Origin: Phycisphaerae bacterium RAS2
Lineage (GTDB): Bacteria; Planctomycetota; Phycisphaerae; UBA1845; UTPLA1
Length of the DNA stretch: 64,000 bases
Direction of reading: 5' to 3'
Assembly: GCA_007753915.1 (NCBI GenBank)
Contig: CP036352.1
Coordinates: forward strand, 2,604,001-2,668,000
The notes beneath the pieces are model-generated. The model was not told the DNA's origin. It did not search any database and saw only the letters and a list, made by a program, of their open reading frames with translations. Both the position numbers and the translations under genes were made by a program. Below are positions 28,514 through 48,044 of the stretch, piece after piece; the stretch's first letter is position 1, and every line of letters begins with the position of its first letter.

Positions 28514-28545
28514 CTCAATCTCCAGTCTTCGCGCGTCGGAGGCGC

Positions 28546-29175: not shown

Positions 29176-29195
29176 TGTGTTGAACGATCAACACA
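29176..29195. promoter_or_regulatory. Probable TetR operator
   Basis: TGTGTTGA-ACGA-TCAACACA is a perfect inverted repeat of two 8-bp arms, immediately upstream of the TetR-family ATG. Size and symmetry suit a TetR dimer; binding would block the ribosome-site region of the regulator and WD40 operon. Confidence 0.65.
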
Positions 29196-29257
29196 GTAAT
29201 CGAAGAAGCAGGACCATGTCAACAGCAAAACCCAGGAAACTCATAAGATGTTTTCTG

Positions 29258-29291
29258 AAAAAGCTTTATGGAAGGCGGCCAATCCGCCTCC
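29258..29291 (-). terminator. Possible terminator after selD
   Basis: Read on the minus strand, GGAGGCGG pairs with CCGCCTTCC (one bulge) around ATTGG, and CTTTTTC follows 7 nt later. It lies about 65 nt after the selD stop. Confidence 0.4.
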
Positions 29292-29355
29292 CTTTCAAAC
29301 TGCGTCACATGATGGCCGATTCGATGCGCCGGATTACCGCCTTGAACGCGGCTCC

Positions 29356-30405: not shown

Positions 30406-30569
30406 GGGTGCGATGCGGTTCGCCTTGCATCGGCGTCTCCTTCAGCCCGTCTTTCGCGGGCCCGTCGTCATTCTATCCGAGCGGGACGGCGCGCGTGACG
30501 GCGCTTTTTCAACGCCCGGGCAACCGGTTATCGTGGTCATCGTCGACCTGCTTACGGAGACCCGCTTGC

Positions 30570-31256: not shown

Positions 31257-31307
31257 CCGCACCATCTTGATGCGATCAATCGGGCATTGATTCACCGGAG
31301 GTGACAC

Positions 31308-31988
31308 ATGACCGGGAAGACAAGGGTTCGAGTCACATGGTGTGCTTTGGCCGTCAGCGCGGTCGCAGCCTTCCTCACACCCTTGCCGCTCGTCGCCCTC
31401 TTGCATGACGATGAGCCTGAAACAAACGCCCCTGCGGAACGGTTTACACTTGAGTATTCCGGAAAGTCAATCGACGTCATGCTCGGCGAGCCGTTTGTTG
31501 TCGAAATCGAAGGCCGACGTGTCGACATGAAACTGACTGCCAAGCGCTATCGCATCTTGGAGTTGGATGGCGTTTCATTTCGCTATCCACGCGAATTCAA
31601 GTTTAGTGCAGGAAAGGAGAAACGCTTTCGCACCGCAACTTTGGAAGGAACGGACGCGATGATTGTGCTGTACAAATATGAATCAGGGGACGCATCCGAG
31701 TTCATCTCCGCATTGGCAAAATCCCTCTCCAACGACTGGAAAAGGAAAAAAGCAAAAGTCAAGCAATCGAATCGAGTGCAAAATCTGGGGGCACATACCC
31801 TCAAGGGAAAAAGGATTGAAATCAAGACACTTGGGCATTCAATTCGGCAGGATTTTGTCGGGCTGAATACAACTTCGGGAGTAGTAGTCCTGATGCTACA
31901 GGACTCGGCCCCGGATCAGGAAAAGCCGTCGCCTCAATTCGCCGATGCCGTGCGAATGCTCAAAGAGTCTTTCAAGATTAGCGAATAG
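31308..31988 (+). CDS. Exported or membrane-anchored protein of unknown function
   Basis: A strong ribosome site (GGAGGTGA) precedes the ATG. The 226-residue protein has an N-terminal hydrophobic segment (about 9-31), then a charged beta-rich domain (FSAGKEKRFRTATLEG; IVLYKYES) resembling PsbP/DUF1795-like periplasmic proteins. Base composition is visibly lower in GC than its neighbours, with runs of AAA/AAG lysine codons near 31740-31830, which could mean recent acquisition. Confidence 0.65.
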   Translation: MTGKTRVRVTWCALAVSAVAAFLTPLPLVALLHDDEPETNAPAERFTLEYSGKSIDVMLGEPFVVEIEGRRVDMKLTAKRYRILELDGVSFRYPREFKFSAGKEKRFRTATLEGTDAMIVLYKYESGDASEFISALAKSLSNDWKRKKAKVKQSNRVQNLGAHTLKGKRIEIKTLGHSIRQDFVGLNTTSGVVVLMLQDSAPDQEKPSPQFADAVRMLKESFKISE

Positions 31989-32075
31989 TCGGTGCTAGCA
32001 ACTCGCCAAGCTCGCGATCAGATGGACTTGTAACGATTCGACCGGCCAGTCCCAAGCCGCTATCCTTTCCGAATC

Positions 32076-32606
32076 ATGAGCGAGTTCGCGGAAAACCTCT
32101 GGGCGCCGTGGCGGATGCAATACATTGAATCGCTGCGGGACGGCGATGCGCCCAGCGAATGTTTCCTGTGCGACTATGCCGCACAGCCCAAGGCAGACGA
32201 CGTGCATCACGTCATCTGGCGGACAGCCGACACGATGGCACTGCTCAATCGCTTTCCCTATACCAACGGCCACCTGCTCATCGCGCCGTTGGAGCATCGC
32301 GCGGAATTGACCGATCTGACCGACGACCTGCTGGCGGCGCTCTTCCGCACGACGCGCGACGCCCAGGCGCTCCTGCGGCACGTCATCGCGCCGCAGGGCT
32401 TTAACATCGGGATCAACTTCGGCCGCTGCGCCGGCGCGGGTCTGCCGGGTCACGTTCATGTGCATATCATCCCGCGCTGGAACGGCGACACGAACTTCAT
32501 GGCCGTACTCGGCGATGTTCGCGTCATTCCCGAGGCGCTCGACCGGTTGCTGATGAAACTCCGTGAGGGATCGCGGCAACTGGGCCTGCCCGGCTCGAAG
32601 AATTAA
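32076..32606 (+). CDS. HIT-family nucleotide hydrolase/phosphorylase
   Basis: A 176-residue HIT protein. The histidine triad is complete (H126, H128, H130 in GHVHVHIIPRW) and a C29/C32 pair with H44/H45 and H74 could bind zinc, as in Ap4A-phosphorylase-like HIT proteins. Such enzymes cleave dinucleoside polyphosphates or adenylylated compounds. The next gene starts 6 nt after its stop. Confidence 0.92.
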   Translation: MSEFAENLWAPWRMQYIESLRDGDAPSECFLCDYAAQPKADDVHHVIWRTADTMALLNRFPYTNGHLLIAPLEHRAELTDLTDDLLAALFRTTRDAQALLRHVIAPQGFNIGINFGRCAGAGLPGHVHVHIIPRWNGDTNFMAVLGDVRVIPEALDRLLMKLREGSRQLGLPGSKN

Positions 32607-32612
32607 ACCGCC

Positions 32613-33818
32613 ATGTCGCGTGCATCCGATCAACTCGCTCCCTTTGCCGTCGCCGAGGGTACCTCGCGCGGGCGGCAGCACGCCGACCCCTTCGCCGAGG
32701 GTGACAGCCCCTTTGAACTGGATCGCGCTCGCATCCTCTCCTGCACGGCTTTCCGCCGGCTCATGCACAAGACGCAGGTGTTCGTCACCGACTTGAGCGA
32801 CCATTTCCGAACACGGCTCACCCACACCCTCGAAGTCGTCGCGCAGTCCCAGCGGCTCGCACGGGCCATCGGCGCGAACGCGCGCCTCGCCGGGGCGATC
32901 GCCCTCGCGCACGATTTGGGCCATCCGCCGTTCGGTCACGCCGGCGAAGTCGCGCTGGCAGAGTGCATGACGGACCACGGCGGATTTGAACACAACATGC
33001 AATCGCTGCGCGTCGTCGATTATCTTGAACACCCTTATCCGCCCTTTCGTGGGCTGAATCTCTCGTACGAATTGCGCGAGTCGCTCATTAAACATCACAC
33101 GCGGTACGACCATCCTGACCGCGCGGCGCCGATGGATGACGCCACCGCACGCGAACTACTCGCCTCCGGCCCGCGCCCGCCGATCGAGGGGCAGATCGCC
33201 AATCTCGGCGACGCCATCGCCTACGCCCTCCACGACACCGAGGATGCGCTCTTTGACCTTGCCAACATTGCGGATCGCGGCAACCTGCGCGAAAGCGTCC
33301 TGTCGGCCGATCAGCTCGCGGCCAGTCCGCTGTGGGCCGAGGCGGCCGCGCGCGTGCAGGCCGTGTGGCCCAGCTCGCCGACTCACGCGATTCGCCGCCC
33401 GGTGCTGGATGAAATGAATCGGCTGTTGATTGATGACGCGGCAGCCGAATCGCGCCGGCGAATCGAAGCGGCGGGAATCGACTCGCCCGATGCCGCGCGA
33501 AACGCCGTGATTGATGCCGTGGCCTTTTCAGCGACCATGCAGGCGAAGCTCGACGCGCATCAAAACCTGCTGCGCGACGCGGTCTATCGGCACCCAAGCG
33601 TGGCGCGGATGGATGCCGAGGCGAAGCGGATCGTGGCGGAATTGTTCGCGGTGTTCGTGGATGACCTGGCGAGATTGCCCGCGCGGTTTTCCACGCGGAT
33701 CGGCGAACAATCGCCCCATCGCGTCGCCTGCGATTACATCGCCGGGATGACCGACCGCTTCTGCCGGGGGGAGCATGACCGGTGGGTGCAACGCTGCGGC
33801 GGGGATCCAACGCCATGA
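32613..33818 (+). CDS. dgt: Deoxyguanosinetriphosphate triphosphohydrolase-like HD protein
   Basis: The 401-residue protein has the dGTPase/HD layout: RTRLTHTLEV with the first metal His (H71), HDLGHPPFGH with the HD pair (H100, D101), and the C-terminal helical region. It hydrolyses dNTPs to nucleoside and triphosphate and so sets nucleotide pools. It is probably co-transcribed with the HIT hydrolase gene, another nucleotide-sanitising function. Confidence 0.92.
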   Translation: MSRASDQLAPFAVAEGTSRGRQHADPFAEGDSPFELDRARILSCTAFRRLMHKTQVFVTDLSDHFRTRLTHTLEVVAQSQRLARAIGANARLAGAIALAHDLGHPPFGHAGEVALAECMTDHGGFEHNMQSLRVVDYLEHPYPPFRGLNLSYELRESLIKHHTRYDHPDRAAPMDDATARELLASGPRPPIEGQIANLGDAIAYALHDTEDALFDLANIADRGNLRESVLSADQLAASPLWAEAAARVQAVWPSSPTHAIRRPVLDEMNRLLIDDAAAESRRRIEAAGIDSPDAARNAVIDAVAFSATMQAKLDAHQNLLRDAVYRHPSVARMDAEAKRIVAELFAVFVDDLARLPARFSTRIGEQSPHRVACDYIAGMTDRFCRGEHDRWVQRCGGDPTP

Positions 33819-33904
33819 GCGAGCCTTTTTTGTAACAAGATTGTCAGAGCGAGGGCTGCGGTAGAAAAGCAGTCGAAGGACCGCACAAATGGTCTGCCGT
33901 TCAT

Positions 33905-33933
33905 TTGACGAGTCGCGCTCGCCGAACGAAAAT
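33905..33933 (+). promoter_or_regulatory. Predicted sigma70-type promoter
   Basis: TTGACG (33905-33910), a 17-nt spacer and GAAAAT (33928-33933) lie 65 nt before the ATG of the next gene. The -35 matches five of six consensus bases and the -10 four of six. Confidence 0.4.
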
Positions 33934-33998
33934 GATCACGCATGGTCATGGGTGCAATCGAACGATCGCCGCGCACTTGCATTGAGAAGGATCTAGTC

Positions 33999-35090
33999 AT
34001 GTCACGACGACTCATCACAGGACTTGTTCTCTCCACGCTGCTGCTGATCAGCGCGAGTTCCGCCAGGGGGCAGGACACGCTCGTTGTTGATCGATTTGGT
34101 GGTTCCGCCAGCGCGCCGGCGGGATACCTCGCCGCGACGGAGGCGGATACGAACAAGCTCGTCGCGGATCGGGAGCGGTTCATTCGCACCTATTACGAGC
34201 CGGATCCCGCCGCGATGGCCGCGATACAGAAGTCGCTCGCCGAAGCTGCGAAGCTTCAGGATAAGTATCGCTTCGATGTCGCGCTGACGCTTTCGCGTAT
34301 GGGCCTCGCCCTGGGCATCGCCTCCGAAAACCCGGAGTACTCGCCGGAAAAGCGCGCCGAAGTCATGGGCCGGCTTCGTGCCCAGGCCTCCCGGTATTAC
34401 GCCATGGGCCCGTTGAGCCTTGCCAAGGTCGCGAAGATGGCCGAGGGATCGTTGAGCGCCGATCGCATCGCCGCCGGTCACGCGAAGCTCAACGCCGCGC
34501 TGCAGCACGTTCCTAACGCGACACCGGTCGATATCGCCAAGCTGGACGCCTTCTTGTCGCCCCCGCTCGCCGCCACGCCCAAGCCGATCATCCCGCGCTC
34601 GGCGCCGATGGATGTTCAAGCCCTGACCCAGCAGGACCAAAATCAGCAGATCATGCCAGCGAATGCCGCCAATCAGCCCGCGCCGATGGCGCAAAACCCG
34701 GCTCAACCGACGGCCCCGACCCCTGCCGAGCAGAAGGTCCCCGAGCGGCCGGTCATGCCCGCCGCCGCGGTCAACCCGCCGCCGCAACCGGTTCAGCCGC
34801 CGGCCCCGCCGCGTGAGATCAAGCCGGCCCCGGCGACGAACACCTGGGCCGACTTCGCGAAGCAATGCGCGACGCGGTTCAAATACACGGCGGATCAGCA
34901 GAAGTCGGCCGACACGGTGCTGGACAGCGTCATGAAGCGGGCCGGCTCCGCGGGCGACGCCAAGGACAGCGCCGGTCACAAGATGGTGGACGTGCTGTAT
35001 GATGAGCTTCAGCAGCGGCTGGAGTCCATCGCTTCCATCGAGCAGCGCCAGGCCGCCGCCCAGGCTGAACCTAAAAAGACTGGCAACTAA
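33999..35090 (+). CDS. Exported Ala/Pro-rich protein of unknown function
   Basis: The ATG at 33999 has AAGGA 7 nt upstream and begins a clear signal peptide (cut near SSARG-QD). The 363-residue product has a helical domain (about 45-190), a Pro/Ala/Gln-rich linker (about 200-275) and a C-terminal helical segment (about 285-355). I recognise no family. Its TAA is directly followed by the tdh ATG, so the two are in one transcript, but a link with threonine breakdown is not evident. Confidence 0.7.
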   Translation: MSRRLITGLVLSTLLLISASSARGQDTLVVDRFGGSASAPAGYLAATEADTNKLVADRERFIRTYYEPDPAAMAAIQKSLAEAAKLQDKYRFDVALTLSRMGLALGIASENPEYSPEKRAEVMGRLRAQASRYYAMGPLSLAKVAKMAEGSLSADRIAAGHAKLNAALQHVPNATPVDIAKLDAFLSPPLAATPKPIIPRSAPMDVQALTQQDQNQQIMPANAANQPAPMAQNPAQPTAPTPAEQKVPERPVMPAAAVNPPPQPVQPPAPPREIKPAPATNTWADFAKQCATRFKYTADQQKSADTVLDSVMKRAGSAGDAKDSAGHKMVDVLYDELQQRLESIASIEQRQAAAQAEPKKTGN

Positions 35091-36179
35091 ATGTCAACCC
35101 TGACCCGGCCGTCACCCGTGCAAACCCCCGCCGCAAAAGGCTTCATGGTCGGCCTGCGAAAGTCGCGCCCGGATGTGGGGCTGGACTACTGCACCGACAT
35201 CCCCATTCCCGCCCTCGGCCCGCACGATGTCCTGATCAAGGTGCGCAAGGCCGGCATCTGCGGCACCGATCGCGGCATCTTCGAGTGGGGCCCGTGGGCG
35301 CAGTCGCGCGTCAAGGTCGGCATCGTCATCGGGCACGAAGTGATGGGCACGGTCGCGGCCGTCGGCTCATCGGTCGACTCCATCGCCGTCGGCCGGCGCG
35401 TGAGCGTCGAGGGGCACATCCATTGCGGCGTGTGTCAGGCCTGCCGCACCGGCAATGCGCACGTTTGCGACAAGGTTCGCATCATCGGCATCGACCGCGA
35501 CGGTACGTTCGCCCAATACCTCGCGGTTCCCGCCGCCAACGTCTGGCCGCTGCACGACAACATCCCCGACAACGTCGCCGCCATCATGGACCCGCTCGGC
35601 AACGCGGTGCATACGGTCATGGCCGCCGGCGTCTCGGGCAAGAGCGTTCTCATCACGGGAGTCGGCATCATCGGTCTAATGGCCGTCTCCGTGGCGAAGG
35701 CAGCCGGCGCGTCGCGGCTGATCGTCGCCGACATTGATGAGCGCCGATTGGACGTTGCGCGGCAGCTTGGCGCGGATCATTGCCTCGTCTCATCCGGCGA
35801 CGGCTGGGTCGAGCAGGTCCGTAAGCTTACTGACGGCCTGGGCCCTGAAGTCGTCTGCGAAATGAGCGGCGCGACCTCGGCCATCAACGGCGCCCTCACG
35901 GTCCTGCGCAACTGCGGCACGATGGCGATCCTCGGCCTGCCCAAAGGCCCCGTGCCGATCAACTTCAACGATCATGTCATCTTCAAGGCCACGCACATCA
36001 TCGGCATCAACGGCCGACGCATGTACGAGACCTGGTACCAGGCCGAGCAATTGATTCTTTCCGGCCGCGTGAGCATGAAGCCGATCATCACGCACGAGTT
36101 CCCGCTCGTCGATTTCGAGCAGGGCTTCAAGGCCATGGCCGCCGGCGACGCGATCAAGGTCATTCTCAACGTGGAGTAG
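35091..36179 (+). CDS. tdh: L-threonine 3-dehydrogenase
   Basis: A 362-residue zinc-dependent medium-chain dehydrogenase. The catalytic zinc site is visible as C57 (CGTD) and H82/E83 (GHE), and the structural zinc Cys are C112, C115, C118 and C126. The NAD loop is GVGIIG. It oxidises threonine to 2-amino-3-ketobutyrate, which the next gene's product cleaves; the adjacent kbl supports tdh over sorbitol or other alcohol dehydrogenases. It starts immediately after the preceding stop. Confidence 0.95.
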   Translation: MSTLTRPSPVQTPAAKGFMVGLRKSRPDVGLDYCTDIPIPALGPHDVLIKVRKAGICGTDRGIFEWGPWAQSRVKVGIVIGHEVMGTVAAVGSSVDSIAVGRRVSVEGHIHCGVCQACRTGNAHVCDKVRIIGIDRDGTFAQYLAVPAANVWPLHDNIPDNVAAIMDPLGNAVHTVMAAGVSGKSVLITGVGIIGLMAVSVAKAAGASRLIVADIDERRLDVARQLGADHCLVSSGDGWVEQVRKLTDGLGPEVVCEMSGATSAINGALTVLRNCGTMAILGLPKGPVPINFNDHVIFKATHIIGINGRRMYETWYQAEQLILSGRVSMKPIITHEFPLVDFEQGFKAMAAGDAIKVILNVE

Positions 36180-36200
36180 CCCCGCAGGCGACGTCCGGCC

Positions 36201-37394
36201 ATGAGCACGCCCCCCTTCTGGAACGCCATCGACGCCGATTTGGGCAACCTCCGCGCTGCCGGGCAATTCAAAACGTTTCGCAACCTGCTCGCGCCGATGG
36301 GCGCGGTTTCGCGGATCGACGGGCTGGGCGAGGTCGTGGTCCTTTGCTCGAATGACTACCTCGGCCTGGCGAATCATCCCGAAGTGGTCGCGGCGGCCGA
36401 ACAGGCCACGCGCCGCTGGGGCGCGGGCACCGGCTCGGTGCGTTTCATCTGCGGCACGTTTGACTACCACCGCACACTTGAGCAGCGCATCGCCGCCCTT
36501 TCCGGCAACGACGCCGCCACGACCTACGTCTCCTGCTGGAACGCCAACGAAGCCGCCATCGCCACGCTCATGGCCATCGGCGGCGACAGCGTGGTGGCGA
36601 TCAGCGACGAACTGAATCACGCGTCCATCATCGACGCGATCCGACTCGGCCGGCAGATCAACAAGGCGTCCAAGTCCGCCGTCTATAAACATTCCGAAGT
36701 TGCCGGCCTGGAAAGCGCCCTCAAGGAACACGCCGCCACGAAACTCAAGCTTGTGGTCACCGACGGCGTTTTCTCCATGGAGGGCGACATCGCCAAGCTC
36801 GATGTCATTCACCGGCTCTGCATCGAACACGGCGCGCTGCTCGTCGTGGATGATTCGCACGGCGTCGGCGTCTGCGGGCCGACCGGCAAGGGCGTCGCCG
36901 AGCATTACGGCCTGCTGGGCAAGATCGATGTGATGACCGGCACGCTCGGCAAGGCCCTGGGCGGCGCCGCCGGGGGATACGTCGCCTCGCGTTCGAACCT
37001 CGTCGAACTGATGCTACAAAAGAGCCGGCCGCAGATTTTCTCCAACGGCTTGCCCCCCGCGTCGGCCGCCGCGGCCCAGGCAGCCATCGACATCCTGATG
37101 CGTGATTCGTCGCGCATCGACAAGCTCCGCGCGAACGTCGCGTACCTGCGCGACGGGCTTGCCAAACTCGGTTTCGAAGCGATCAACAGCCCCAGCGCCA
37201 TCACCCCGATCATCCTCGGCCCGACCGCCAAAGCCATCGCCGCCAGCCAGCGCCTTCTGGAATTGGGCGTTTTCGTGATCGGATTCGGCTACCCTGTCGT
37301 CCCTGAAGGTACAGCCCGCCTTCGCGTGCAGATTTCCGCCGCACACGAACGCGAACACCTCGACCGCGCCCTCGACGCATTTCGCAGGTTGTAA
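36201..37394 (+). CDS. kbl: 2-amino-3-ketobutyrate CoA ligase (glycine C-acetyltransferase)
   Basis: A 397-residue alpha-oxoamine synthase with the PLP-binding lysine at K251 in TGTLGKALGG, and DDSHGVG at 217-223 for the PLP aspartate. With CoA it splits 2-amino-3-ketobutyrate into glycine and acetyl-CoA. It lies 21 nt behind tdh, giving a complete two-step threonine-to-glycine pathway. Confidence 0.95.
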   Translation: MSTPPFWNAIDADLGNLRAAGQFKTFRNLLAPMGAVSRIDGLGEVVVLCSNDYLGLANHPEVVAAAEQATRRWGAGTGSVRFICGTFDYHRTLEQRIAALSGNDAATTYVSCWNANEAAIATLMAIGGDSVVAISDELNHASIIDAIRLGRQINKASKSAVYKHSEVAGLESALKEHAATKLKLVVTDGVFSMEGDIAKLDVIHRLCIEHGALLVVDDSHGVGVCGPTGKGVAEHYGLLGKIDVMTGTLGKALGGAAGGYVASRSNLVELMLQKSRPQIFSNGLPPASAAAAQAAIDILMRDSSRIDKLRANVAYLRDGLAKLGFEAINSPSAITPIILGPTAKAIAASQRLLELGVFVIGFGYPVVPEGTARLRVQISAAHEREHLDRALDAFRRL

Positions 37395-37453
37395 CGATTC
37401 CTCGACTTGCCTTGAGCGGGTGACATGGCCGCGGCCTTTGGCAGCCATGATGC

Positions 37454-37930
37454 TTACCCCGCGCGACCAAACGCGAACACTTCTCCTCGCGCCGCGCGCA
37501 GGTAATCCGCCGTCGCCAGAATCAGGCTATTCGTCAGGCTGCCCGCGTTGAACGCGATCTTTTCGTTCCGCGTGATCGACTCATCGATGAAAAGATCGAA
37601 CGGCAGGATCGGCTTCCCGAACGGCGGCACCGATCCGGGCACGAGGCCGGTCAGTTCCTTCAACTCCTCCGCCGTGGCGAAACGCGTTTTCTTCACGCCG
37701 AATCGCTGCTTGAGCGCGTCGGCATCGAGCTTCAACGCCGCGCTCAACACAAACAGGCGAAACACGTCGCCGGCCTTCACGAGCAGCGCCTTGCCGCCGA
37801 TTCGCACGTCTTCGCCCCGCGCCCGGGCCGACTCCTCCGATGTAAACGTCGGCTCGTGCTGAACGGCGCGATACGGCACGGCGGCCGCCTCGAGCATCGC
37901 GACAATCGAATCGTACACGGCTTCAGCCAT
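37454..37930 (-). CDS. YbaK/ProX-type aminoacyl-tRNA deacylase
   Basis: The 158-residue protein has the YbaK/prolyl-tRNA editing fold with GGKALLVKAG (45-54), the EELKELTG segment and the GSVPPFG loop (98-104). Members remove wrong amino acids from tRNA-Pro or similar. Its start overlaps the end of the glycosyltransferase gene upstream by 8 nt. Confidence 0.88.
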   Translation of the reverse strand: MAEAVYDSIVAMLEAAAVPYRAVQHEPTFTSEESARARGEDVRIGGKALLVKAGDVFRLFVLSAALKLDADALKQRFGVKKTRFATAEELKELTGLVPGSVPPFGKPILPFDLFIDESITRNEKIAFNAGSLTNSLILATADYLRAARGEVFAFGRAG

Positions 37931-39002
37931 GCAGCGGCCTTTCTTCGTTGAGTTGCCTCACGGCATCGGCTCTTGAGACTCGCACGATCCGCCTTCGGCC
38001 GGTCCAGAGCCGCACCGTCTCGCGCGCGTACGCAAACGCACGCACATGATAGTACGCGATCACCCACGGCAGCGAGCGAACAGTCTCGCCAAGCGTCTTG
38101 GCCTTGCGCGCCAACTCGTTGTAGATCACCGCTACGAGCCACGTCGCCAGAATTGCCGCAGCAGCCCACGCAAGTCGGGGCAGCGCCACGGCACCGAGGA
38201 GCAGCATATACGCCGCCATCATCGGCACGATGTCCATGCGATGCCACAGGCGATACTTCCACACGAAATGTGCCGCCGAGCCGCCGCCGAAATACGCCTG
38301 TCGATAAAACGACCGGCGATCGTACGTGTGCTCGTGCAGCACGCGCGCTTCGGGCACGACGCGCTGCTCGAATCCCGCCCACTTCAGAATCCGGAAGATT
38401 CCCTCTTCGTCGCAACCGCCCGAGTTCGTCACATCCGGCACCCCCGCGCGCTCCATCGCCTGAAACCGGCGGTCCTCGTCCCAATTGATTCGCCGCAGCA
38501 ACTCGCGCCGCACCGCCATGTTCCCGCCTACCAGTCGGCTCGCCGCGCCGCGCCCGTGCACGCGATTGGTCCCCTTGAACGCCAGTTCATACACATTCGT
38601 CGGTTTCAGATCCAGCACCAGGCCCGTCACCGCCGCCACTCGATCGTGTGCGAAACCCTCAAGTAGCCGCTCCAGCCAGTCCGGCTCGGCCACGCAGTCA
38701 CTGTCCAGAAACGCCACGATGCCTCCCTGCGCCGCCTCGGTTCCGCGATTGCGACTGGCATTGGCTCCCCGGTTCGTTTCGTTCACGAACCACCGCAGCC
38801 GCAATGCCGGATAGGCCACGCGCTGCCGTTCCAGCATGGCGACGGTGTCATCCGTCGAGCCGTCGTCCACAATGATGACTTCGAAATTGGTGTGCGTCTG
38901 CCGCGCCAGGGCCGTCAGGCATCGCTCGAGTACCGCGCGACGATTGAACGTCGGGATCACGACCGATGCCTCGGGGATGTCGCTTGCCTCGCCGCCGCTC
39001 AT
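37923..39002 (-). CDS. Family 2 glycosyltransferase
   Basis: I take the ATG at 39002 (MSGGEASDIPE); earlier ATGs exist at 39065 and 39071 but would extend into the promoter region of the divergent gene. The 359-residue protein has the GT-A signature VVIPTFNRR, DDGSTDD and the DSD metal motif (AFLDSDC), followed by two or so C-terminal hydrophobic helices. It probably adds a sugar to an envelope polysaccharide or lipid carrier. It is divergent from the next glycosyltransferase. Confidence 0.88.
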   Translation of the reverse strand: MSGGEASDIPEASVVIPTFNRRAVLERCLTALARQTHTNFEVIIVDDGSTDDTVAMLERQRVAYPALRLRWFVNETNRGANASRNRGTEAAQGGIVAFLDSDCVAEPDWLERLLEGFAHDRVAAVTGLVLDLKPTNVYELAFKGTNRVHGRGAASRLVGGNMAVRRELLRRINWDEDRRFQAMERAGVPDVTNSGGCDEEGIFRILKWAGFEQRVVPEARVLHEHTYDRRSFYRQAYFGGGSAAHFVWKYRLWHRMDIVPMMAAYMLLLGAVALPRLAWAAAAILATWLVAVIYNELARKAKTLGETVRSLPWVIAYYHVRAFAYARETVRLWTGRRRIVRVSRADAVRQLNEERPLHG

Positions 39003-39069
39003 GGCGTCGATGATAACCCCCGTCGCGCTGCCTACCAAAGCACTGGCCGCGCGCGTACGATTCATTCGC

Positions 39070-40044
39070 ATGACGCCCATCGTCGCCGTGATGATCACCA
39101 CCTGCCGCCGGCCCGACGGATTGCGGCGACTGTTGCTCGCGCTCAATCAGCAAGTCTTCCAGGACGCGCCGCCGATCGTTCGACTGGTCGTGTTGGATAA
39201 CGACGCGGAAGAATCGGGCCGCGCGACCTGTGACGCATTGCGGCCGCTGCTTCGATGGCCGATTCACTACGGGTCGGAGTCGCGGCGAGGCATCTCTCCC
39301 GCGCGCAATGCAGCCATCGCGCTCGCGCTGGCAACCGACCCCGCACTGGATAACCTAGCCCTCATCGACGACGACGAACAGCCCGCACCATCATGGCTCG
39401 ACGAGATGCTTCGAATCCAGCGCGATCACGCAGCCGATGTCGTTGCGGGCCCTGTCTATCCCCAGTTCGAGCACACTCCGCCGGATTGGGTCGCTCGCGG
39501 CCGGTTCTTCGAGCCGCGCACGCATCCCGACGGCGCGCGACTCGACTACGCCTTCGGCGGCAGCGTCCTTTGGCGGGCGTCGCTCTGCCGCGAGGGCGGT
39601 CACCGCTTCGGCGAGCACTACGGCCTGATCGGCGGCAGCGACAGCGAATTCTTCACGCGACTGCACCGCGCCGGCTGTAAGATCGTCTGGTCGCAGAAGG
39701 CCGAAGTGCTGGAGTTCATTCCGCCCGAGCGCACCAACGCCCGCTGGCTGGTCCGCCGCATGTTTCGCACGGGAAACGCCGGCGTGCTCGTCGCGCGCGA
39801 TCTGGATGGCAATACGTTGCGAACGAACGCTATTCTTTTCTGTAAGGCGCTGGCGTGGCTTGCCATCGGTGCGGGGCAATCGGCGGCAGGACTCGTGGCC
39901 GGCAAACACCTTCGCGTCACCGGCTATCGCCACATCGCTTACGGGCTGGGAATTCTCGCAGGACTGAGCGGCTGCCGATTTGAGGAGTACCGAACTGCGC
40001 ACAATGCGCCGCATTCAGATCGAAACGTCTCGCCGCATTCCTAA
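39070..40044 (+). CDS. Family 2 glycosyltransferase
   Basis: The ATG at 39070 gives 324 residues starting MTPIVAVMITTCRRPDGL, a normal GT2 opening; a longer frame runs upstream through the divergent gene and is not used. The metal motif is the acidic cluster LIDDDEQ, and the mid-part (GGSVLWRAS, GGSDSEFF) fits a GT-A fold. Its stop overlaps that of the convergent membrane gene by a few bases. Confidence 0.85.
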   Translation: MTPIVAVMITTCRRPDGLRRLLLALNQQVFQDAPPIVRLVVLDNDAEESGRATCDALRPLLRWPIHYGSESRRGISPARNAAIALALATDPALDNLALIDDDEQPAPSWLDEMLRIQRDHAADVVAGPVYPQFEHTPPDWVARGRFFEPRTHPDGARLDYAFGGSVLWRASLCREGGHRFGEHYGLIGGSDSEFFTRLHRAGCKIVWSQKAEVLEFIPPERTNARWLVRRMFRTGNAGVLVARDLDGNTLRTNAILFCKALAWLAIGAGQSAAGLVAGKHLRVTGYRHIAYGLGILAGLSGCRFEEYRTAHNAPHSDRNVSPHS

Positions 40045-41873
40045 AGCTTAAGTCGAATAAACGTCAGCTCGCCCGTTTGCGTGATGGCTGCGATGTGCGG
40101 CCGGACCCAGTCGGCGTTCACGCCGGTCGTCGGCACGAAATACTGCACGTTGTAACGGATGAGCATGTCGCGCCGACGCTGCCAGTCCGTCCCCGGTTGC
40201 AGCATGTCGTACAGATCTTTCAGACGCCTGTCGAGTTCAGGAACGCCGTTCGACGCGCTGGGCGATGCGATGATCCGGCAGTCGGCCGACATCGTGAACC
40301 ACAGGCACGCCATTGGCTCGCTCAAGACAACCGCCCCGCGCGGCACGTTGCGGCGGACCAGTTCGCCGATTTGCATCAATTCTCGCAGGGTATGTTCGCG
40401 CTCCGCCGTGGGTCTCATCGCCAGCCGAAGCGCGTCCCTCCACGTCCACGGCTCCTCATAGTTCGTATGGCACCACGCACCCGCAAGGGTCGCGGCGCAA
40501 AGTCCCGCACGAATCAGTGCACCGCGTTGCCAGCGCAGCAGCACCAGCGCCGCACCGCCCGGAACCAGCACATAGAACGCCAGCGAGGTAACGATCTCAT
40601 ACCGCGAAACAACCCACTCCTCACCGAACACGCGCATCAGCAACGTGCATAGCGGCGGCACAAACAGCATCACCGTCGCGATCACCGGCACCGAAAGCAC
40701 GAACAGCACGCGCGCGGCGACCGCCCACCCCGTCAGAAAGGACAAACCAATCGCCGCGACCAGCACCGCCGATCCACGATTCGATCCGCCCAGGAACGCA
40801 GGCAGCGATTCAATCCGCCGCACCCATCCGTCGCCGGCCGTCTGCACGTAATCGCCCGACGGCTCCGGCGTGATGTCATACACTTTGATTTTTTCCTGAA
40901 CCGTCGCCGTCTTCAGCTTCGATATCAGTCCGAATGGCAAGCCGACCGCCAGCGCGAGCAGGTACGCCGCCGTCGGCACCGCGCGGCCGGTGCGACGCCA
41001 AATGTGCCGCACCAGCGAATACGCCAGAATCGGCCCGGCCGCCATGACCGCGAAGGCAGCATACAGCCCGTGCATCGAGCCGATGACCAAGACCGTCGCG
41101 CCGAGTCCGACCGCGTCGCGGCTTCGCACGATCGGCCCGGTCGCTCGGATCGCCAGTGCGATCGCCATCGGCAGCAGCCAGTACGGTGCGAGCTGGTTGG
41201 GATACATCGAAAACGTCACCGGGCCGCGCGCGACGATGCAGAACAAGGCCGCCAGCCAGGCACAGACCTGATCGGAAAAAACCACCCAGGCCAAATAATA
41301 GACTCCTGTAATAATCAAGAGCTTGGCCCAAGCGCAGCTTGCAGCCCAGACTTCCAGGTGCGGCACACCAGTCAACTGCGATGCCGACGCATACAGTGCG
41401 TGCACGATGTTCGTGTGATAAACCGGGAAGAAGTAATCACCCGCAACGAACGGGTCGCGGTTCGACAGGCCGTGATCGATCAGGTGTCGAATGCGGGACA
41501 GATGAATCACCGCATCGCCGCCAAGAAATCCGCCGTTCCGAACGTCGATCGCCAGCGCGACGAGCACCAAGACAAGCGGAACGCCGCGTGCTTCTTTCAT
41601 CAAACGCCAGCCGTCTTTCCAACCGCCGCGACGTGTCAGGTCCACAATCGATGCGGCAACCAGCACAACAATAGCTCCGCTGAAGACGCCCAGCGGCGCG
41701 CGGATCACATAAAGCGGGATGACGACAGCGGTCAGCACGGCAAACGTGGCGAGGTAAGAAAGCCCGAGCGTTCCCAGCAAGCCGCTTCGAAGCGATTCGC
41801 TATCCCACCTCCGAACAACCGCGAAGCCCGGCAGTGCCAGGGCGATCCAGAACAGAAGCGATGCATGCATCAT
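40041..41873 (-). CDS. Polytopic membrane protein, probable GT-C-type glycosyltransferase
   Basis: The first of two adjacent ATGs (41873) overlaps the upstream glycosyltransferase stop by 4 nt. The 610-residue protein has about ten or more membrane helices. After the third or so helix there is a periplasmic loop with GGDAVIHLSRIRHLIDHGL, whose Asp may play the role of the GT-C catalytic acid. It may use a lipid-linked sugar to decorate a polysaccharide or protein. The C-terminal 150 residues are soluble. Confidence 0.75.
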   Translation of the reverse strand: MMHASLLFWIALALPGFAVVRRWDSESLRSGLLGTLGLSYLATFAVLTAVVIPLYVIRAPLGVFSGAIVVLVAASIVDLTRRGGWKDGWRLMKEARGVPLVLVLVALAIDVRNGGFLGGDAVIHLSRIRHLIDHGLSNRDPFVAGDYFFPVYHTNIVHALYASASQLTGVPHLEVWAASCAWAKLLIITGVYYLAWVVFSDQVCAWLAALFCIVARGPVTFSMYPNQLAPYWLLPMAIALAIRATGPIVRSRDAVGLGATVLVIGSMHGLYAAFAVMAAGPILAYSLVRHIWRRTGRAVPTAAYLLALAVGLPFGLISKLKTATVQEKIKVYDITPEPSGDYVQTAGDGWVRRIESLPAFLGGSNRGSAVLVAAIGLSFLTGWAVAARVLFVLSVPVIATVMLFVPPLCTLLMRVFGEEWVVSRYEIVTSLAFYVLVPGGAALVLLRWQRGALIRAGLCAATLAGAWCHTNYEEPWTWRDALRLAMRPTAEREHTLRELMQIGELVRRNVPRGAVVLSEPMACLWFTMSADCRIIASPSASNGVPELDRRLKDLYDMLQPGTDWQRRRDMLIRYNVQYFVPTTGVNADWVRPHIAAITQTGELTFIRLKL

Positions 41874-42994
41874 GACCCATCGCCCCCCACTCGCCGCGGC
41901 CCGCGAAACGGATACGCCAGCATGCCCTGCACCATGCCCACGGCACGCCACATCGCCCGGACGAATCCCAACGGCGCGAAGGCCACGTGCGACCACTTCC
42001 CAACATGCCGGACGAGTCGCAAGGTCAGGGGAATCTGAACGACCGCCAACAGCATTGCACAGATCACAACCATCCAGCCCGCCGCCGGACCGATCAACCG
42101 TACCTTGTCCGAGGCACTTTCCAGCACGCCGGTTGACGAACCTGCGACATGCCCGGGCCACCCCGGAAATTGGCTTGCGATAAAGACAAGAGTCGCCACG
42201 ATCATCAACAGCGCCAGCGGGGGCTGCACGTGATCCGTCCACTTGCTGTAATCATCACCGGCCGCCCGGTCGCGATAACGCATATGCAGGAACACGCGCC
42301 AGTAGCCGTGATGCCGCTGCGCGCGCAGGTACCGACCGAGGCTCGTCGGATGAAAATGCCCCACTCGCGATTCCAGCTCGAAGCGCAGCGCATACCCCAA
42401 CGTCGCCACGCGGAACGACAGTTCGGCATCCTCCGCCCCAGGCGATCCCGGTCCGTTGAAAAACCGCTCATCAAAACCGCCTGCGCGGTCCAGCGCCTCG
42501 CGTCGATAAAGAACATTGAAACCGCCCAGAAAGTTGACATCCGTCCTCATCGCCCGATGCCGCGCGACGATCTCTTCGTGAATCAGGCACGCCAGCAGCG
42601 AGTCCGGCCGCATGTTCCCATAGCTGCCCCCCACGCCCCCGACGCTCGCATCGTCCATGTGAGGCAGCAACCGCGCTAACGCGTCCGGCTCCGCCACGCA
42701 ATCCGAGTCGATGAACCAGATGAGCGGATGGCACGCCGCGCGCCATCCAAGATTCCGCGCCGCGCCCGGCCCCCCGCCGACGCCGGTCACGACGCGCAGG
42801 CAGCCCAGCCGCGCCGCGAACTCTTGCGCGATCCGCGCCGATTCGTCGGTCGATCCATCGTCAACGAAAATCACTTCGCGCAGACCCGACGTGCCGTCGG
42901 CCGCGATTTGCGCGATTGCTTCGAGGCAAGGCCGCAACGTGCCGGCGCAGTTTCGACCGGGAATGACGAGAGTGACGGACGGGTTCACGCCCAC
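41870..42994 (-). CDS. Family 2 glycosyltransferase with C-terminal membrane helices
   Basis: GTG start, 374 residues. GT-A motifs: LVIPGRNCAG, DDGSTDES and WFIDSDC. The substrate region contains NVLYRREAL and GAEDAELSFR (the ED motif of processive or polyprenol-linked GT2 enzymes). Two or three hydrophobic helices lie at about 255-345. It is translationally coupled to the downstream GT-C-like gene, so the two likely act in one glycan pathway. Confidence 0.87.
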   Translation of the reverse strand: MGVNPSVTLVIPGRNCAGTLRPCLEAIAQIAADGTSGLREVIFVDDGSTDESARIAQEFAARLGCLRVVTGVGGGPGAARNLGWRAACHPLIWFIDSDCVAEPDALARLLPHMDDASVGGVGGSYGNMRPDSLLACLIHEEIVARHRAMRTDVNFLGGFNVLYRREALDRAGGFDERFFNGPGSPGAEDAELSFRVATLGYALRFELESRVGHFHPTSLGRYLRAQRHHGYWRVFLHMRYRDRAAGDDYSKWTDHVQPPLALLMIVATLVFIASQFPGWPGHVAGSSTGVLESASDKVRLIGPAAGWMVVICAMLLAVVQIPLTLRLVRHVGKWSHVAFAPLGFVRAMWRAVGMVQGMLAYPFRGPRRVGGDGS

Positions 42995-43026
42995 AATCTA
43001 ATTGCGTTGCGAACGAGTCGCCACTG

Positions 43027-43560
43027 TCACGGGCACGCGCGATTGGGATACGTCCCGCTTCCGTGCAGCCGACCGAGATGAACGTAGCTTTCGATGACTT
43101 CGCGCAGGTACAGCTTCTCTTCGTCTTTCAAATCGCGTACGACCCGGCCCGGCGCCCCCATGACGACCTTGCCGTCGGGAACAATCGTTCTTGGCGGAAG
43201 CAGCGCCCCAGCCGCAATCAGGCAACCGCGCCCGATCTCGCAATCATCCAGCACAATCGCGCCGATGCCGATCAGCGTCCCCGCGCCGACCCGACGGCAA
43301 TGCACCACCGCGCGATGGCCGATGCTGACCTCGTCCTCGATGTCCATCGGCACGCCGCGGTTGGTGTGCAGCACCGTGCCGTCCTGCACGTTCACGCGCC
43401 GGCCGACCGTGATCGCCGAAACATCGCCGCGAATCACCACGTGGTGCATGACGGTCGACTGATCGCCGATCGTAACTTCGCCGCCGATGTAGGCCGTTGG
43501 GGCGATGTACACGTCCTTGCCGATTCGCACACGGTCGGGTAAATCAACAAAGTCGAACAT
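43027..43560 (-). CDS. Gamma-class carbonic anhydrase-like hexapeptide-repeat protein
   Basis: The ATG at 43560 gives 177 residues. A left-handed beta-helix of hexapeptide repeats fills about 15-150, with the metal-ligand-type histidines in HHVVIRGD, LHTN and GHRAVVH. A C-terminal helix follows. Close relatives are often named YrdA/CaiE-like or gamma carbonic anhydrase family. Enzyme activity is not certain. Confidence 0.88.
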   Translation of the reverse strand: MFDFVDLPDRVRIGKDVYIAPTAYIGGEVTIGDQSTVMHHVVIRGDVSAITVGRRVNVQDGTVLHTNRGVPMDIEDEVSIGHRAVVHCRRVGAGTLIGIGAIVLDDCEIGRGCLIAAGALLPPRTIVPDGKVVMGAPGRVVRDLKDEEKLYLREVIESYVHLGRLHGSGTYPNRACP

Positions 43561-43614
43561 GGCGGAATTGTATGCCGGACGCGCGCCAACGCTATGCGCG
43601 CAAATAGGGAACAC

Positions 43615-43681
43615 GTAGGGTGGGCACCGCCCACCAACAACACAATGGCTCTCTGAATCAATCGGTGGGCAATGCCCGCCG
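43615..43681. repeat. Pair of REP-like hairpins
   Basis: Two GC-rich hairpins 27 nt apart: GGTGGGC-ACC-GCCCACC (43619-43635, perfect) and CGGTGGGC-AAT-GCCCGCCG (43663-43681, one G-T pair). They share the GGTGGGC core, as in repetitive extragenic palindrome clusters. They lie just upstream of the selenoprotein gene; whether they recur elsewhere needs the genome. Confidence 0.45.
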
Positions 43682-43727
43682 GTAGCATTGACCTGCAATG
43701 CGAAATCGCGAGCCTCGGAGACACACC

Positions 43728-44081
43728 ATGCCCCGACGAACCATTGACTGGTACTACCATCGCGCGAACTGAACGGGCTGCGCGAAGTCGCAAGGGTTCC
43801 TTGCGAAGAACCAACTCACCCCCGCGAAGCAGGTCGACGCTCGAAAGGAACGATTCGGCCCGGCGGAGGCGCTGCGCCTGGCGCGCGCCGCCAGGCGAAT
43901 CATCGTCGCCAAGGGCAAGTCGCTCCTTGCCTTCGACATGTCCAACCCCCCGCCTCGTAAGGAGCTGCTCGCCGCCCTGCTCGGCCCCACGGGCAACCTT
44001 CGCGCCCCGGCAATGGTCTGCGGCGATACGCTGATCGTCGGCTTCTCCGCGGATGCCGCCAAGGCTGCCGGTCTTTACTGA
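43728..44081 (+). CDS. Selenocysteine-containing ArsC-family (thioredoxin-fold) protein
   Basis: Reading TGA at 43770-43772 as selenocysteine gives an uninterrupted 117-residue protein. GGAG lies 9 nt before the ATG. Residues 1-18 read MPRRTIDWYYHRAN-U-TGC, a UxxC redox pair (Sec15, Cys18) at the tip of the first helix of an ArsC/Spx-like fold. The remainder has KSQGFLAKNQL, VDARKERFGPAEAL, VAKGKSLL and the C-terminal LLGPTGNLRAP typical of this family, in which NCBI annotates both Cys and Sec forms. A SECIS-type hairpin follows the UGA. It probably acts as a thiol/selenol reductase; the substrate is unknown, and arsenate reduction is not implied. Confidence 0.9.
43788..43806 (+). promoter_or_regulatory. 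Bacterial SECIS-type hairpin in the ArsC-family selenoprotein gene
   Basis: TCGCAAGG-GTT-CCTTGCGA is a perfect 8-bp stem with a GTT loop, starting 15 nt after the UGA. An apical loop with GU about 23 nt downstream is the arrangement described for SelB-binding bacterial SECIS elements. Confidence 0.8.
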
Positions 44082-44153
44082 AAGTCCCCTTAGGCCTCAT
44101 GCAGCGCCTTAACCCTTCCCGCGTAAAACACTTGGCGTTAGATTCCCCGACAA

Positions 44154-44183
44154 TTGACAGCCCGGTAATAACCCGGTTAGAAA
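44154..44183 (+). promoter_or_regulatory. Possible promoter of the Mla-like operon
   Basis: A consensus TTGACA (44154-44159) is followed after 18 nt by TAGAAA (44178-44183), 43 nt before the likely GTG start. The -10 is weak. Confidence 0.3.
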
Positions 44184-44226
44184 GCGGTCCGCCTGCTTTG
44201 CGGGCCTGATGAGGGAGCATCTGCCC

Positions 44227-45057
44227 GTGTCCAGTGTCGCACCATCCGCCGGCCGCCGCGCTTTTGGACAGTTGATGCAGACCGCCGAAAACCTCGGCGA
44301 TTTCACAGTCTTCTCTTTGCGCTCCTTCGGCTGGATGTTCCGCGGTCTCTTCGAGCGGCAACAGTGGAACCTGCTCATCCCCCAGATGTACGAAGTCGGC
44401 TACCGCTCGCTTCCCGTCGTGCTCATCACCGGTGCGTTTGTCGGAATGGTCCTCGCGGTGCAGGCCATCGAGCAGTTCATGGCTGCCGGCTTGGAAGACC
44501 GCATGGGGTCAGTCGTGAACCTCTCCGTCGTGCGCGAGCTGGGCCCCGTGCTGGCCGGAATCATGCTCGCCGGGCGCATCGGCGGCGCGCTGACCGCCGA
44601 ACTGGGCACCATGAACGTCACCGAGCAGATCGACGCGCTGCGCAGCATGGGCATCAACCCGGTTCGGTATCTCGTCGCGCCGCGCGTGCTGGCGTGTTTT
44701 CTGCTCGCGCCGATTCTCACGCTGTACGCCGATCTGACCGGTTCCATCGGCGGCTGGTTCATCTCGGTCATCCAGCGCGGCGTTGACAGCGGCCCCTATT
44801 GGGAAAACACCGCCGCAGCCGTTGCGAACTATGACATTTTCAGCGGCGTGCTGAAAGGCTTCTTCTTCGGTTCGGCCCTGGGCCTGATCAGTTGTTACAA
44901 GGGGTTCAATTGCCGCGCGGGCGCCGAGGGCGTTGGCCGCGCCTGCACCGAGGCCTTCGTCGCGTCGTTCGTGGCGATTCTCGCATTGGACTACGTGCTG
45001 GCCGAAATCCTCCAGGCCATCAGCATCAAGCTGTGGGGTTTCCGCCCGCTGATCTGA
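44227..45057 (+). CDS. mlaE: MlaE-type permease of an MCE/Mla lipid transporter
   Basis: I prefer the GTG at 44227 because GGGAG lies 9 nt upstream; an in-frame ATG at 44209 would add 6 residues but has no site. The 276-residue membrane protein has the MlaE permease signature around LITGAFVGMVLAVQ and ELGPVLAGIMLAGRIGGALTAELG. With the ATPase and MCE subunits encoded next it should move phospholipid between inner and outer membranes. No mlaB or mlaC homologue is adjacent. Confidence 0.93.
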   Translation: MSSVAPSAGRRAFGQLMQTAENLGDFTVFSLRSFGWMFRGLFERQQWNLLIPQMYEVGYRSLPVVLITGAFVGMVLAVQAIEQFMAAGLEDRMGSVVNLSVVRELGPVLAGIMLAGRIGGALTAELGTMNVTEQIDALRSMGINPVRYLVAPRVLACFLLAPILTLYADLTGSIGGWFISVIQRGVDSGPYWENTAAAVANYDIFSGVLKGFFFGSALGLISCYKGFNCRAGAEGVGRACTEAFVASFVAILALDYVLAEILQAISIKLWGFRPLI

Positions 45058-45069
45058 CGGGACGCGCCG

Positions 45070-45864
45070 ATGACCACCGATTCCGGAAATCACTCCGAGA
45101 CGATCATCGAGCTGCGAGGCGTCAGCAAGCGATTCGGCGCGCTCACCGTGCTGGACGGCGTCAACCTGTCGATCGCCCGTGGAAAGACAACCGTCGTCAT
45201 CGGCGAATCCGGCACCGGCAAGAGCGTCCTGCTCAAGCACCTCGTCGCCCTGCTGCGGCCCGACTCGGGAGAGGTCCATTTTCACGGTCGCCGGATCGAC
45301 GACCTGTCCGAGCAGGAGCTGGTGGAGTCGCGCAAGCGCTTTGGGTTCCTGTTCCAGATGGGCGCGCTGTTTGACTCCATGACCGTCGCGGAGAACGTCG
45401 CCTTCCCAATCATTCAACACGGCGATCAGAACCTCGCGCCCAATGATCTGGACGAACTGGTGGCGCAGAAACTGCGAATGGTCGGGTTGGACGGTCTGCA
45501 ATCGCGACGGCCCGGGGAGCTTTCGGGCGGTCAAAAAAAACGTGTCGCCCTGGCCCGCGCGATCGCGCTCTCGCCGGAGGTCGTGCTGTACGACGAACCG
45601 ACGACCGGCCTGGACCCGGTTCGCGCCGATGTCATCAACGAGTTGATCATCAAGCTCAACCGCGAACTGAACGTGACAAGCCTTGTGGTCACGCATGACA
45701 TGACCAGCGCGTACAAGGTCGCGGACCGGATCATCATGCTGCACCACGGAAAGATCATCGCCGACGCCGACGCGACGTGGTTCAAGTCGTGCGATGATCG
45801 CCGCGTGCGTCGATTCGTTGACGGCAAAGCGGATGAGCAGGATTTGAAAGCGCTGGACATGTGA
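45070..45864 (+). CDS. mlaF: MlaF-type ABC transporter ATPase
   Basis: A 264-residue ATPase: Walker A GESGTGKS at 45-52, signature LSGGQ at 151-155 and Walker B VVLYDEP at 171-177. The layout and gene order (permease, ATPase, MCE protein) identify the Mla/Tgt-type family. It begins 12 nt after the permease stop. Confidence 0.94.
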   Translation: MTTDSGNHSETIIELRGVSKRFGALTVLDGVNLSIARGKTTVVIGESGTGKSVLLKHLVALLRPDSGEVHFHGRRIDDLSEQELVESRKRFGFLFQMGALFDSMTVAENVAFPIIQHGDQNLAPNDLDELVAQKLRMVGLDGLQSRRPGELSGGQKKRVALARAIALSPEVVLYDEPTTGLDPVRADVINELIIKLNRELNVTSLVVTHDMTSAYKVADRIIMLHHGKIIADADATWFKSCDDRRVRRFVDGKADEQDLKALDM

Positions 45865-45889
45865 TGGGAGAGATTTGTGGAATCTTCTT

Positions 45890-45908
45890 GGTGCGTCGAG
45901 AACGCACC
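45890..45908. repeat. Hairpin and short tandem repeat between mlaF- and mlaD-like genes
   Basis: GGTGCGT-CGAGA-ACGCACC is a perfect 7-bp hairpin. Just after it CCACTAA and two CCACTGA units run in tandem (about 45917-45937). Both lie in the short gap inside the operon and may influence the relative expression of the MCE gene or be a dispersed repeat. Confidence 0.4.
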
Positions 45909-45955
45909 TTACCAGCCACTAACCACTGACCACTGACGACCGCAAGGACAACACC

Positions 45956-46978
45956 ATGACTCAAAAAGCCGGTTACAACGTGATTGTCGGATTCTTCGTC
46001 CTGACGGGAATTCTCATTCTCACGGCGATGGTTTTCGCCTTCGGAGGCGGACGGTCCTTCTTCGCCGACACCTACACGGTCAACGCCGTCTTCCCCGATG
46101 GCGTGGTCGGCGTCCAGCCCGGTCAGAGTGTCACGCTCGGCGGCAAGCGCGTCGGCGAGACGGTCGACGTGCGATTCGTCGATCCCCAGCGGCTGGAGAA
46201 GGGCGTCGTCGTCGTCATTGCGGCGCTCAAGGACTTTGCCCTGCCGGCGGCCTGCGAACTTGGTGTCACGTCCAACATCATGGGCTTTGGCCGCCCCGTG
46301 CTCCAACTCAAGATCAAGGACCCAGGCGACACGCGGCACCTGCCGACCGACGGCACGGCGGAGATCCTCGGTCGAACCCTGAACCCACTCGATTCGATCA
46401 TTCCAAAGCAAACGCAAATGACGCTCGAAAAGGCGACGGCCGACATCGGCGATCTCGCGGCGTCGCTCAAACCCGTTGCCGACAACCTCGCCCGAATGCT
46501 TGAGTCACGCCAGCTGACCGACGTAGATGCCAAGGCCGTCAACGCCAACATCGACACGGTCGTGCAGCGGCTCGACGCAGCGCTCAAATCCATCGACGCC
46601 ATCGCCGGCGACGCCGAAAATCAGGCCAACATCAAGGCGGCTGTCGCCAATGCGCGCACCATGACCGAATCGGGCGTCAAGGTCACGGAAGATCTCCGAG
46701 CGTTCACAAGCGAGGGCAAGCAGGCCGCCGCGCAGGCGACGGTGTTTCTGCAGAAGCTGACGACCGTCGCGGAGCAGATGTCATCCGTGGCGTCGCACAT
46801 GGACACGGCCCTGGCGCGGATGAACGAAGGCAAGGGCACCGTCGGCCTGATGATGAACGACAACCGTCTCTATGAGGAAATGCTGCTGACTTTCCGCCGT
46901 ATGACCAAGATGATGGACGACATGCGCGAAGTACTCGACCTCGCCAAGAAAGGCCAGCTCCGCATCAAGGCGTTCTAG
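45956..46978 (+). CDS. mlaD: MlaD-type MCE-domain protein
   Basis: A 340-residue protein with one N-terminal transmembrane anchor (about 8-29) and a single MCE domain (about 40-125), then a long helical region (about 135-300) that would form a periplasmic tube or coiled stalk. It is the substrate-binding part of the lipid transporter encoded upstream. The helical tail is much longer than in E. coli MlaD, as in many other MCE proteins. Confidence 0.9.
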   Translation: MTQKAGYNVIVGFFVLTGILILTAMVFAFGGGRSFFADTYTVNAVFPDGVVGVQPGQSVTLGGKRVGETVDVRFVDPQRLEKGVVVVIAALKDFALPAACELGVTSNIMGFGRPVLQLKIKDPGDTRHLPTDGTAEILGRTLNPLDSIIPKQTQMTLEKATADIGDLAASLKPVADNLARMLESRQLTDVDAKAVNANIDTVVQRLDAALKSIDAIAGDAENQANIKAAVANARTMTESGVKVTEDLRAFTSEGKQAAAQATVFLQKLTTVAEQMSSVASHMDTALARMNEGKGTVGLMMNDNRLYEEMLLTFRRMTKMMDDMREVLDLAKKGQLRIKAF

Positions 46979-46997
46979 GGCGACCCTTACCGCCGGT

Positions 46998-48044
46998 TCA
47001 ATGCACGCCCTGATCCGCCAGCCAGCGCTCGGCGTCGATCGCAGCCTTGCAGCCCATCCCCGCGGCGGTCACCGCCTGCCGATAGACGCTGTCCACGCAA
47101 TCGCCCGCTGCAAAGACGCCTTCGATGTTCGTCGTTGAGCGATACGCGTCCTTCAATTTGATGTAGCCCTTCGCATCCAGATCAAGCTGCCCGTTCAGGA
47201 ATCCCGTCGCCGGCGTGTGACCAATGGCGATGAACAGCCCACCGACCGGCAGCGTGCTCTCCTCGCCGGTCTGCGTGTCCTTGAGCCGAAGCCCGGAGAT
47301 CATGGCATCGCCCAGAACATCGACGACGGCTTTGTTCCACTGAAAAACGATTTTGGGGTTGTCGTGGGCACGCTTGGCCATGATCTTGCTCGCCCGAAGC
47401 GCGTCGCGTCGATGGATCATGTGCACTTTGCTGGCGTACTTCGTCAGGTACGACGCCTCTTCCACGGCCGAGTCACCCCCGCCCACGACGGCCAGCTCCT
47501 TGTTGCGAAAAATCGGGATGGCCCCGTCGCACACGGCACACGCGCTCACGCCCCCGCCGCTCCGCGCGAGGCGAAGTTCATTCTCCAGCCCCAGCCAGTT
47601 CGCTGTCGCCCCCGTCGAGACGATGACGCTGTGCGCGCGATAAACCGTGTCGTCCTCGGCGATCACCTTGAACGGCCGCGTCGAGAAATCCACCGACTTG
47701 CAGTCCTGGTACTTGGACGAATGGCCGTCGTCCGGGTTGGACACATCCGGGTTCAGGCCGTCGTCGGTGACGATGCGCGTGCCGAACCGCACGGCCTGCT
47801 GTTCGAACTTTGACATCATCACGGGGCCCATGATGCCCTCGGGGAAGCCGGGATAATTCTCCACTTCGGTCGTCAGCATGAGCTGCCCACCCGGAAGCAT
47901 CAGCGACGGCGTACTCTTGGGCCGACCGGCGAACACAAGCGGAGACAGATTCGCCCGCGCCGCGTAGATCGCGGCCGTCCAGCCGGCGGGGCCGGAGCCG
48001 ATGATGATGACCTTTTCAACCGATGAACCGGATTGCTGCGCCAT
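46998..48044 (-). CDS. trxB: Thioredoxin reductase
   Basis: The ATG at 48044 (MAQQSG) gives 348 residues. FAD loop GSGPAG at 16-21, redox pair C169/C172 in CAVCDG, NADP loop GGGDSA and the C-terminal GVFAAGDC FAD motif are all present. It reduces thioredoxin with NADPH. Between about 93 and 117 there is an extra, Asp-rich stretch (DGLNPDVSNPDDGHSS) not seen in short TrxB proteins. The gene is convergent with the MCE gene. Confidence 0.93.
   Translation of the reverse strand: MAQQSGSSVEKVIIIGSGPAGWTAAIYAARANLSPLVFAGRPKSTPSLMLPGGQLMLTTEVENYPGFPEGIMGPVMMSKFEQQAVRFGTRIVTDDGLNPDVSNPDDGHSSKYQDCKSVDFSTRPFKVIAEDDTVYRAHSVIVSTGATANWLGLENELRLARSGGGVSACAVCDGAIPIFRNKELAVVGGGDSAVEEASYLTKYASKVHMIHRRDALRASKIMAKRAHDNPKIVFQWNKAVVDVLGDAMISGLRLKDTQTGEESTLPVGGLFIAIGHTPATGFLNGQLDLDAKGYIKLKDAYRSTTNIEGVFAAGDCVDSVYRQAVTAAGMGCKAAIDAERWLADQGVH

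Follow-up and report, generated by a model that had tools for sequence, protein, structure and literature searches.

An 'ArsC-like' selenoprotein was already described in a bacterial survey of 2006 (PMC1794560), and the Global Ocean Sampling selenoproteome, reported in 2008, included an 'Arsenate reductase 2' (cd03032) with a UxxC motif (PMC2398784). The Arsenate reductase 1 of the latter study (PMC2398784), like the protein called arsenate reductase in the reviews, carries UxxS and belongs to a different family. An ArsC-like UxxC protein was listed in a 2022 review (PMC9312934), and NF041106 ('Arsenate reductase-like protein', UxxC) appears as a known prokaryotic selenoprotein family in a 2026 review (PMC13188914). 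Selenoproteins of planctomycetes have been reported as well (PMC4807772). 'Arsenate reductase 2' can be likened by its description to the NF041106 family, with the same ArsC-like fold class and the UxxC motif, and the two probably overlap. The family is thus known already, and the gene described here is a further member of it.

The gene is located in a stretch of 64,000 nucleotides of the genome of Phycisphaerae bacterium RAS2 (the window, to which all coordinates refer). Judging from the sequence comparisons, its UGA at 43770-43772 is almost certainly read as selenocysteine (Sec), and the gene is very probably a stand-alone one that encodes a small ArsC/Spx-superfamily selenoprotein with a thioredoxin fold, Sec15 and Cys18 being its UxxC redox pair.

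The gene and its family

The gene (43728-44081, forward strand; 117 codons and a TGA stop) starts with an ATG at 43728, ends with the stop at 44079-44081 and reads MPRRTIDWYYHRAN-TGA-TGCAKSQGFLAKNQLTPAKQ...LLGPTGNLRAPAMVCGDTLIVGFSADAAKAAGLY-TGA. Its one internal in-frame TGA is codon 15 (43770-43772, forward strand), which together with Cys18, the putative resolving cysteine (43779-43781, forward strand), forms U-T-G-C. A GGAG ribosome-binding site was read from the sequence 7 nt upstream of the ATG (43717-43720, forward strand); GGAGG likewise precedes the ATG of a relative from the same genus (L076). The first-pass annotation had proposed a 118-codon frame interrupted by this TGA only, a GGAG ribosome site and a redox pair of U15 and C18, and all of this could be retained, with 117 residues and a stop, and with Cys18 invariant in 50 aligned sequences.

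A profile search in which Sec was read as Cys gave a match to NF041106 ('ArsC family (seleno)protein') of 121.1 bits (E 2.9e-35), well over the cut-off of 85 bits, and the UxxC/CxxC motif of the family is opened by Sec or Cys. The match spans residues 6-109 and so covers both sides of the UGA, where family-like sequence had been noticed before; in a six-frame search of the genome the same model scored 113.5 bits at this locus. The protein further agrees with NF041106 (ArsC_rel_Se_1) in the position of UxxC, in the presence of Sec or Cys within the family and in the distribution across Planctomycetota, and differs in having UTGC where most members have UTSC, but in nothing else of note. Among 392 phylum genomes the family scored over the cut-off in 80, in most of them with a single internal TGA; among 114 genomes of the order it did so in 50. 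From these genome searches it is mostly Sec-coding and widespread in the Planctomycetota.

Homologues that align across the UGA, a check put forward with the first-pass annotation, were indeed found. Within 77 sequences aligned across the site (window sequence included), the codon-15 column holds 66 TGA and 11 Cys codons (10 TGC and 1 TGT). The motif search behind this set allowed Sec or Cys alone at codon 15, and four loci matching the pattern incompletely were excluded. When any residue was allowed at the site, 80 further loci from named genomes yielded 70 times UxxC and 8 times CxxC; the remaining two were also UxxC on inspection, the motif search having caught an upstream false start. Residues invariant in the 50 sequences are W8, R12, Sec/Cys15, C18, G63, G86, P87, G89, R92, P94, G99 and G105. 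The copy from the same genus (L076) is 82% identical and has kept the TGA; compared with the window gene its dN/dS downstream of the UGA is about 0.25, and by this measure the downstream part is under purifying selection. One family member (L050, genome G512) has a Cys codon (TGC) though its genome still carries selA, suggesting that Sec and Cys forms may replace each other while the Sec pathway is retained.

That ordinary gene callers would miss the gene, as had been expected, is correct insofar as standard callers truncate it, but an annotation pipeline with the NF041106 model can find such genes because the family is already modelled in NCBIfam.

Predicted fold and possible role

AlphaFold2, run on 50 sequences, gave a confident model with a pLDDT of 95.5 and a pTM of 0.88, in which a strand (residues 8-11) is followed by a helix (residues 16-27), so that Sec15 stands where the first helix starts. 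In thioredoxin folds the active residue usually occupies this position. When solved structures were searched by profile, the top matches were 2m46, a putative arsenate reductase, and Spx (E 5e-9 to 5e-8); the UxxC aligns to the CxxC of 2m46 and Spx, and the Arg of LRAP to that of LRRP in Spx, which makes the invariant Arg92 the counterpart of a conserved Spx arginine. Foldseek also ranked Spx first (E 3e-4, TM ~0.5). The predicted fold is of the ArsC/Spx thioredoxin-like type, and the closest solved relatives are mostly Spx. At such a TM the fold matches are moderate, and so they do not secure a catalytic role by analogy with ArsC or Spx. The earlier label 'ArsC-family' stands for fold and ancestry, but not for arsenate reduction.

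On the basis of the model we infer a reductase activity of the thiol/disulfide type. Sec15, at the end of the first strand and the start of the first helix, would attack an oxidised substrate, Cys18 would resolve with formation of a selenenylsulfide, and a cellular dithiol donor would recycle the protein. This UxxC cycle is proposed because of the position of Sec15 in the model, the alignment of the UxxC and the Arg, and the match to the Spx fold. There is some chance, though a limited one, that the family, as a Sec-dependent reductase or redox switch, acts on a substrate that is new among the ArsC/Spx relatives.

The protein might also be a genuine selenoprotein that acts not as an enzyme but as an Spx-type regulator, binding the C-terminal domain of the RNA polymerase alpha subunit and sensing oxidation through its UxxC. 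In line with this, Spx dominates the closest solved relatives by profile as well as by fold, and the structures (PDB 1z3e, 6ghb, 3l78) share the thioredoxin-like ArsC fold, a CxxC at the same position, aligned to the UxxC, and the Arg of LRxP. However, identity is only 15-22%, Spx has Cys where the window protein has Sec, and TIGR01617 reached just 13 bits against a cut-off of 75.05. Sec is moreover rare in pure sensor switches. An Spx-like regulatory role is possible, if rather improbable.

The chance that we are dealing with a true arsenate reductase, in which Sec replaces the catalytic Cys, is smaller still. Pfam ArsC (PF03960) does match 47 of the 50 family members (best E 4.4e-9), but the motif is UxxC, whereas UxxS is found in the arsenate reductase selenoproteins, a separate family (PMC9312934, PMC13188914), and a conserved gene neighbourhood is lacking. 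The NCBIfam search of the selenoprotein reported no arsenate-reductase model, TIGR00014 (arsenate reductase ArsC) giving no match at E up to 1, which makes arsenate reduction unlikely for this sequence. The neighbourhood was compared over 80 loci, and the commonest flanking gene family occurred in 7 of them, so that the neighbours give no clue to function.

The spacer between the selenoprotein gene and the gene of an MlaE-like permease (44100-44208; TTGACAGCCCGGTAATAACCCGGTTAGAAAGCGGTCCGCCTGC...GCGGGCCTGATGAGGGAGCAT) is strongly conserved with positions ~1330-1465 (reverse strand) of L076. Promoter and leader sequences for the mla-like operon that follows are likely located here; Rfam gave no match in the region 28000-47000, which includes this spacer.

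The hairpin downstream of the UGA

The perfect 8-bp hairpin with a GTT loop that had been noticed 15 nt after the UGA is present at 43788-43806 (forward strand), where TCGCAAGG-GTT-CCTTGCGA forms 8 Watson-Crick pairs with a folding energy of -10.7 kcal/mol. Its GUU loop begins 23 nt after the UGA. The constraints described for bacterial SECIS elements (bSECIS) are a loop of 3-9 nt with a G in the first two positions, located 16-37 nt from the UGA, and a stem of 4-16 bp with a minimum free energy (MFE) of at most -7.5 kcal/mol (PMC13188914); the hairpin lies within these limits for loop, distance, stem and energy.

A bSECIS-like hairpin of 8 strict Watson-Crick pairs with a G-bearing loop follows 2 of the 1855 TGAs on both strands of the window, and 69 of the 1855 when G-U pairs are allowed. 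In addition, at 27 TGAs of the window a hairpin of -7.5 kcal/mol or lower occurs together with at least 60 open codons downstream. Because of these 69 and 27 sites the hairpin, taken alone, is modest evidence for Sec; the homology across the UGA raises the selenoprotein gene far above chance. Nine further sites among the 27 were inspected for other selenoproteins, and none was selenoprotein-like, most being spurious arginine-rich frames.

Plain MFE z-scores separated Sec from Cys homologues weakly (Mann-Whitney p 0.06), and the 61-nt stretch of the window gene folds no better than shuffled sequences (z -0.38). We therefore used covariation, and hairpin pair counts relative to synonymous recoding, instead. 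In 22 TGA homologues, hand-picked for a hairpin in the same register, 92.6% of the cells are paired, a figure inflated by this choice of sequences, and four pairs have changed on both sides (15 such cells), which is the informative part. The covariation score of this set (0.314) was reached in 0 of 500 shuffles and by no slid control. Among the 77 unselected sequences, the pair counts (out of 8) are 6.06 for TGA genes, compared to 4.45 under synonymous recoding, and 2.64 for Cys genes, compared to 2.51. By these sequence comparisons, the hairpin is maintained with compensatory changes in the TGA homologues and is absent from the Cys homologues.

The loop opens with GU in 60 of the 66 TGA genes. 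Some TGA homologues with low pair counts in the fixed register, the group L021-L024, have kept the stem with a 4-nt loop. Eight TGA homologues from other families (L029, L037, L038, L044, L045, L087, L089 and L095) do not have the 8-bp register; downstream of the UGA they form another stem-loop, and their SECIS seems to be built differently.

Selenocysteine machinery and decoding of the UGA

The genome, a single contig of 4.32 Mb with 97% completeness, contains the genes expected for a bacterium that makes selenoproteins. We found tRNA-Sec (selC; 71 bits, anticodon TCA), selB (297.8 bits against a cut-off of 242) with selA immediately after it (508.6 bits against 268), and selD, so that the search for Sec genes called for at the first pass had a positive outcome. 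The selD gene, whose selenophosphate synthetase acts in trans in the Sec pathway, lies in the window itself (29357-30404, reverse strand, ends approximate) and matches TIGR00476 with 377.6 bits (cut-off 125). It has one TGA inside (30352-30354, reverse strand; NCAG-U-AGKL), and 25 nt after this UGA begins a hairpin of 8 bp whose loop is GUG. With a UGA in selD as well, the window has two genes for selenoproteins, separated by about 13 kb; gene callers will truncate selD at its UGA. In the ArsC-like gene, SelB and tRNA-Sec(UCA) would decode codon 15 as Sec under the direction of the hairpin that begins 15 nt further on.

A pseudogene, i.e. an ArsC-like Cys gene broken by a nonsense change from Cys to TGA, could be imagined, as Cys-coding homologues exist and TGA is one base away from TGC and TGT. 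However, the TGA is common to 66 homologues of many families and to the copy from the same genus, dN/dS downstream of it is 0.25, the covarying SECIS occurs in TGA homologues only and the Sec machinery is complete in the genome; we rejected this explanation, which has next to no probability left, on the conservation of the TGA across genera and the pattern of Sec/Cys exchange. Which residue stands at the UGA does not follow from translation of the frame alone, but near-cognate suppression or Trp decoding, for which we found no supporting point, was discarded as similarly negligible on the same exchange pattern, the residue swapped with UGA in relatives being always Cys and never Trp, and tRNA-Sec, SelA, SelB and SelD being present in the genome. 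From these comparisons we infer that Sec is actually inserted at codon 15, and the first-pass annotation of a hidden selenoprotein is borne out by the homologue column, the SECIS covariation and the Sec machinery.

The analysis confirms a UGA-decoded gene where standard gene callers truncate. The gene and, at a distance of 13 kb, the Sec-type selD together document the use of selenocysteine in Phycisphaerae bacterium RAS2. If the substrate of the family is indeed new among its ArsC/Spx relatives, this widespread planctomycete selenoprotein would define a new biochemical activity.
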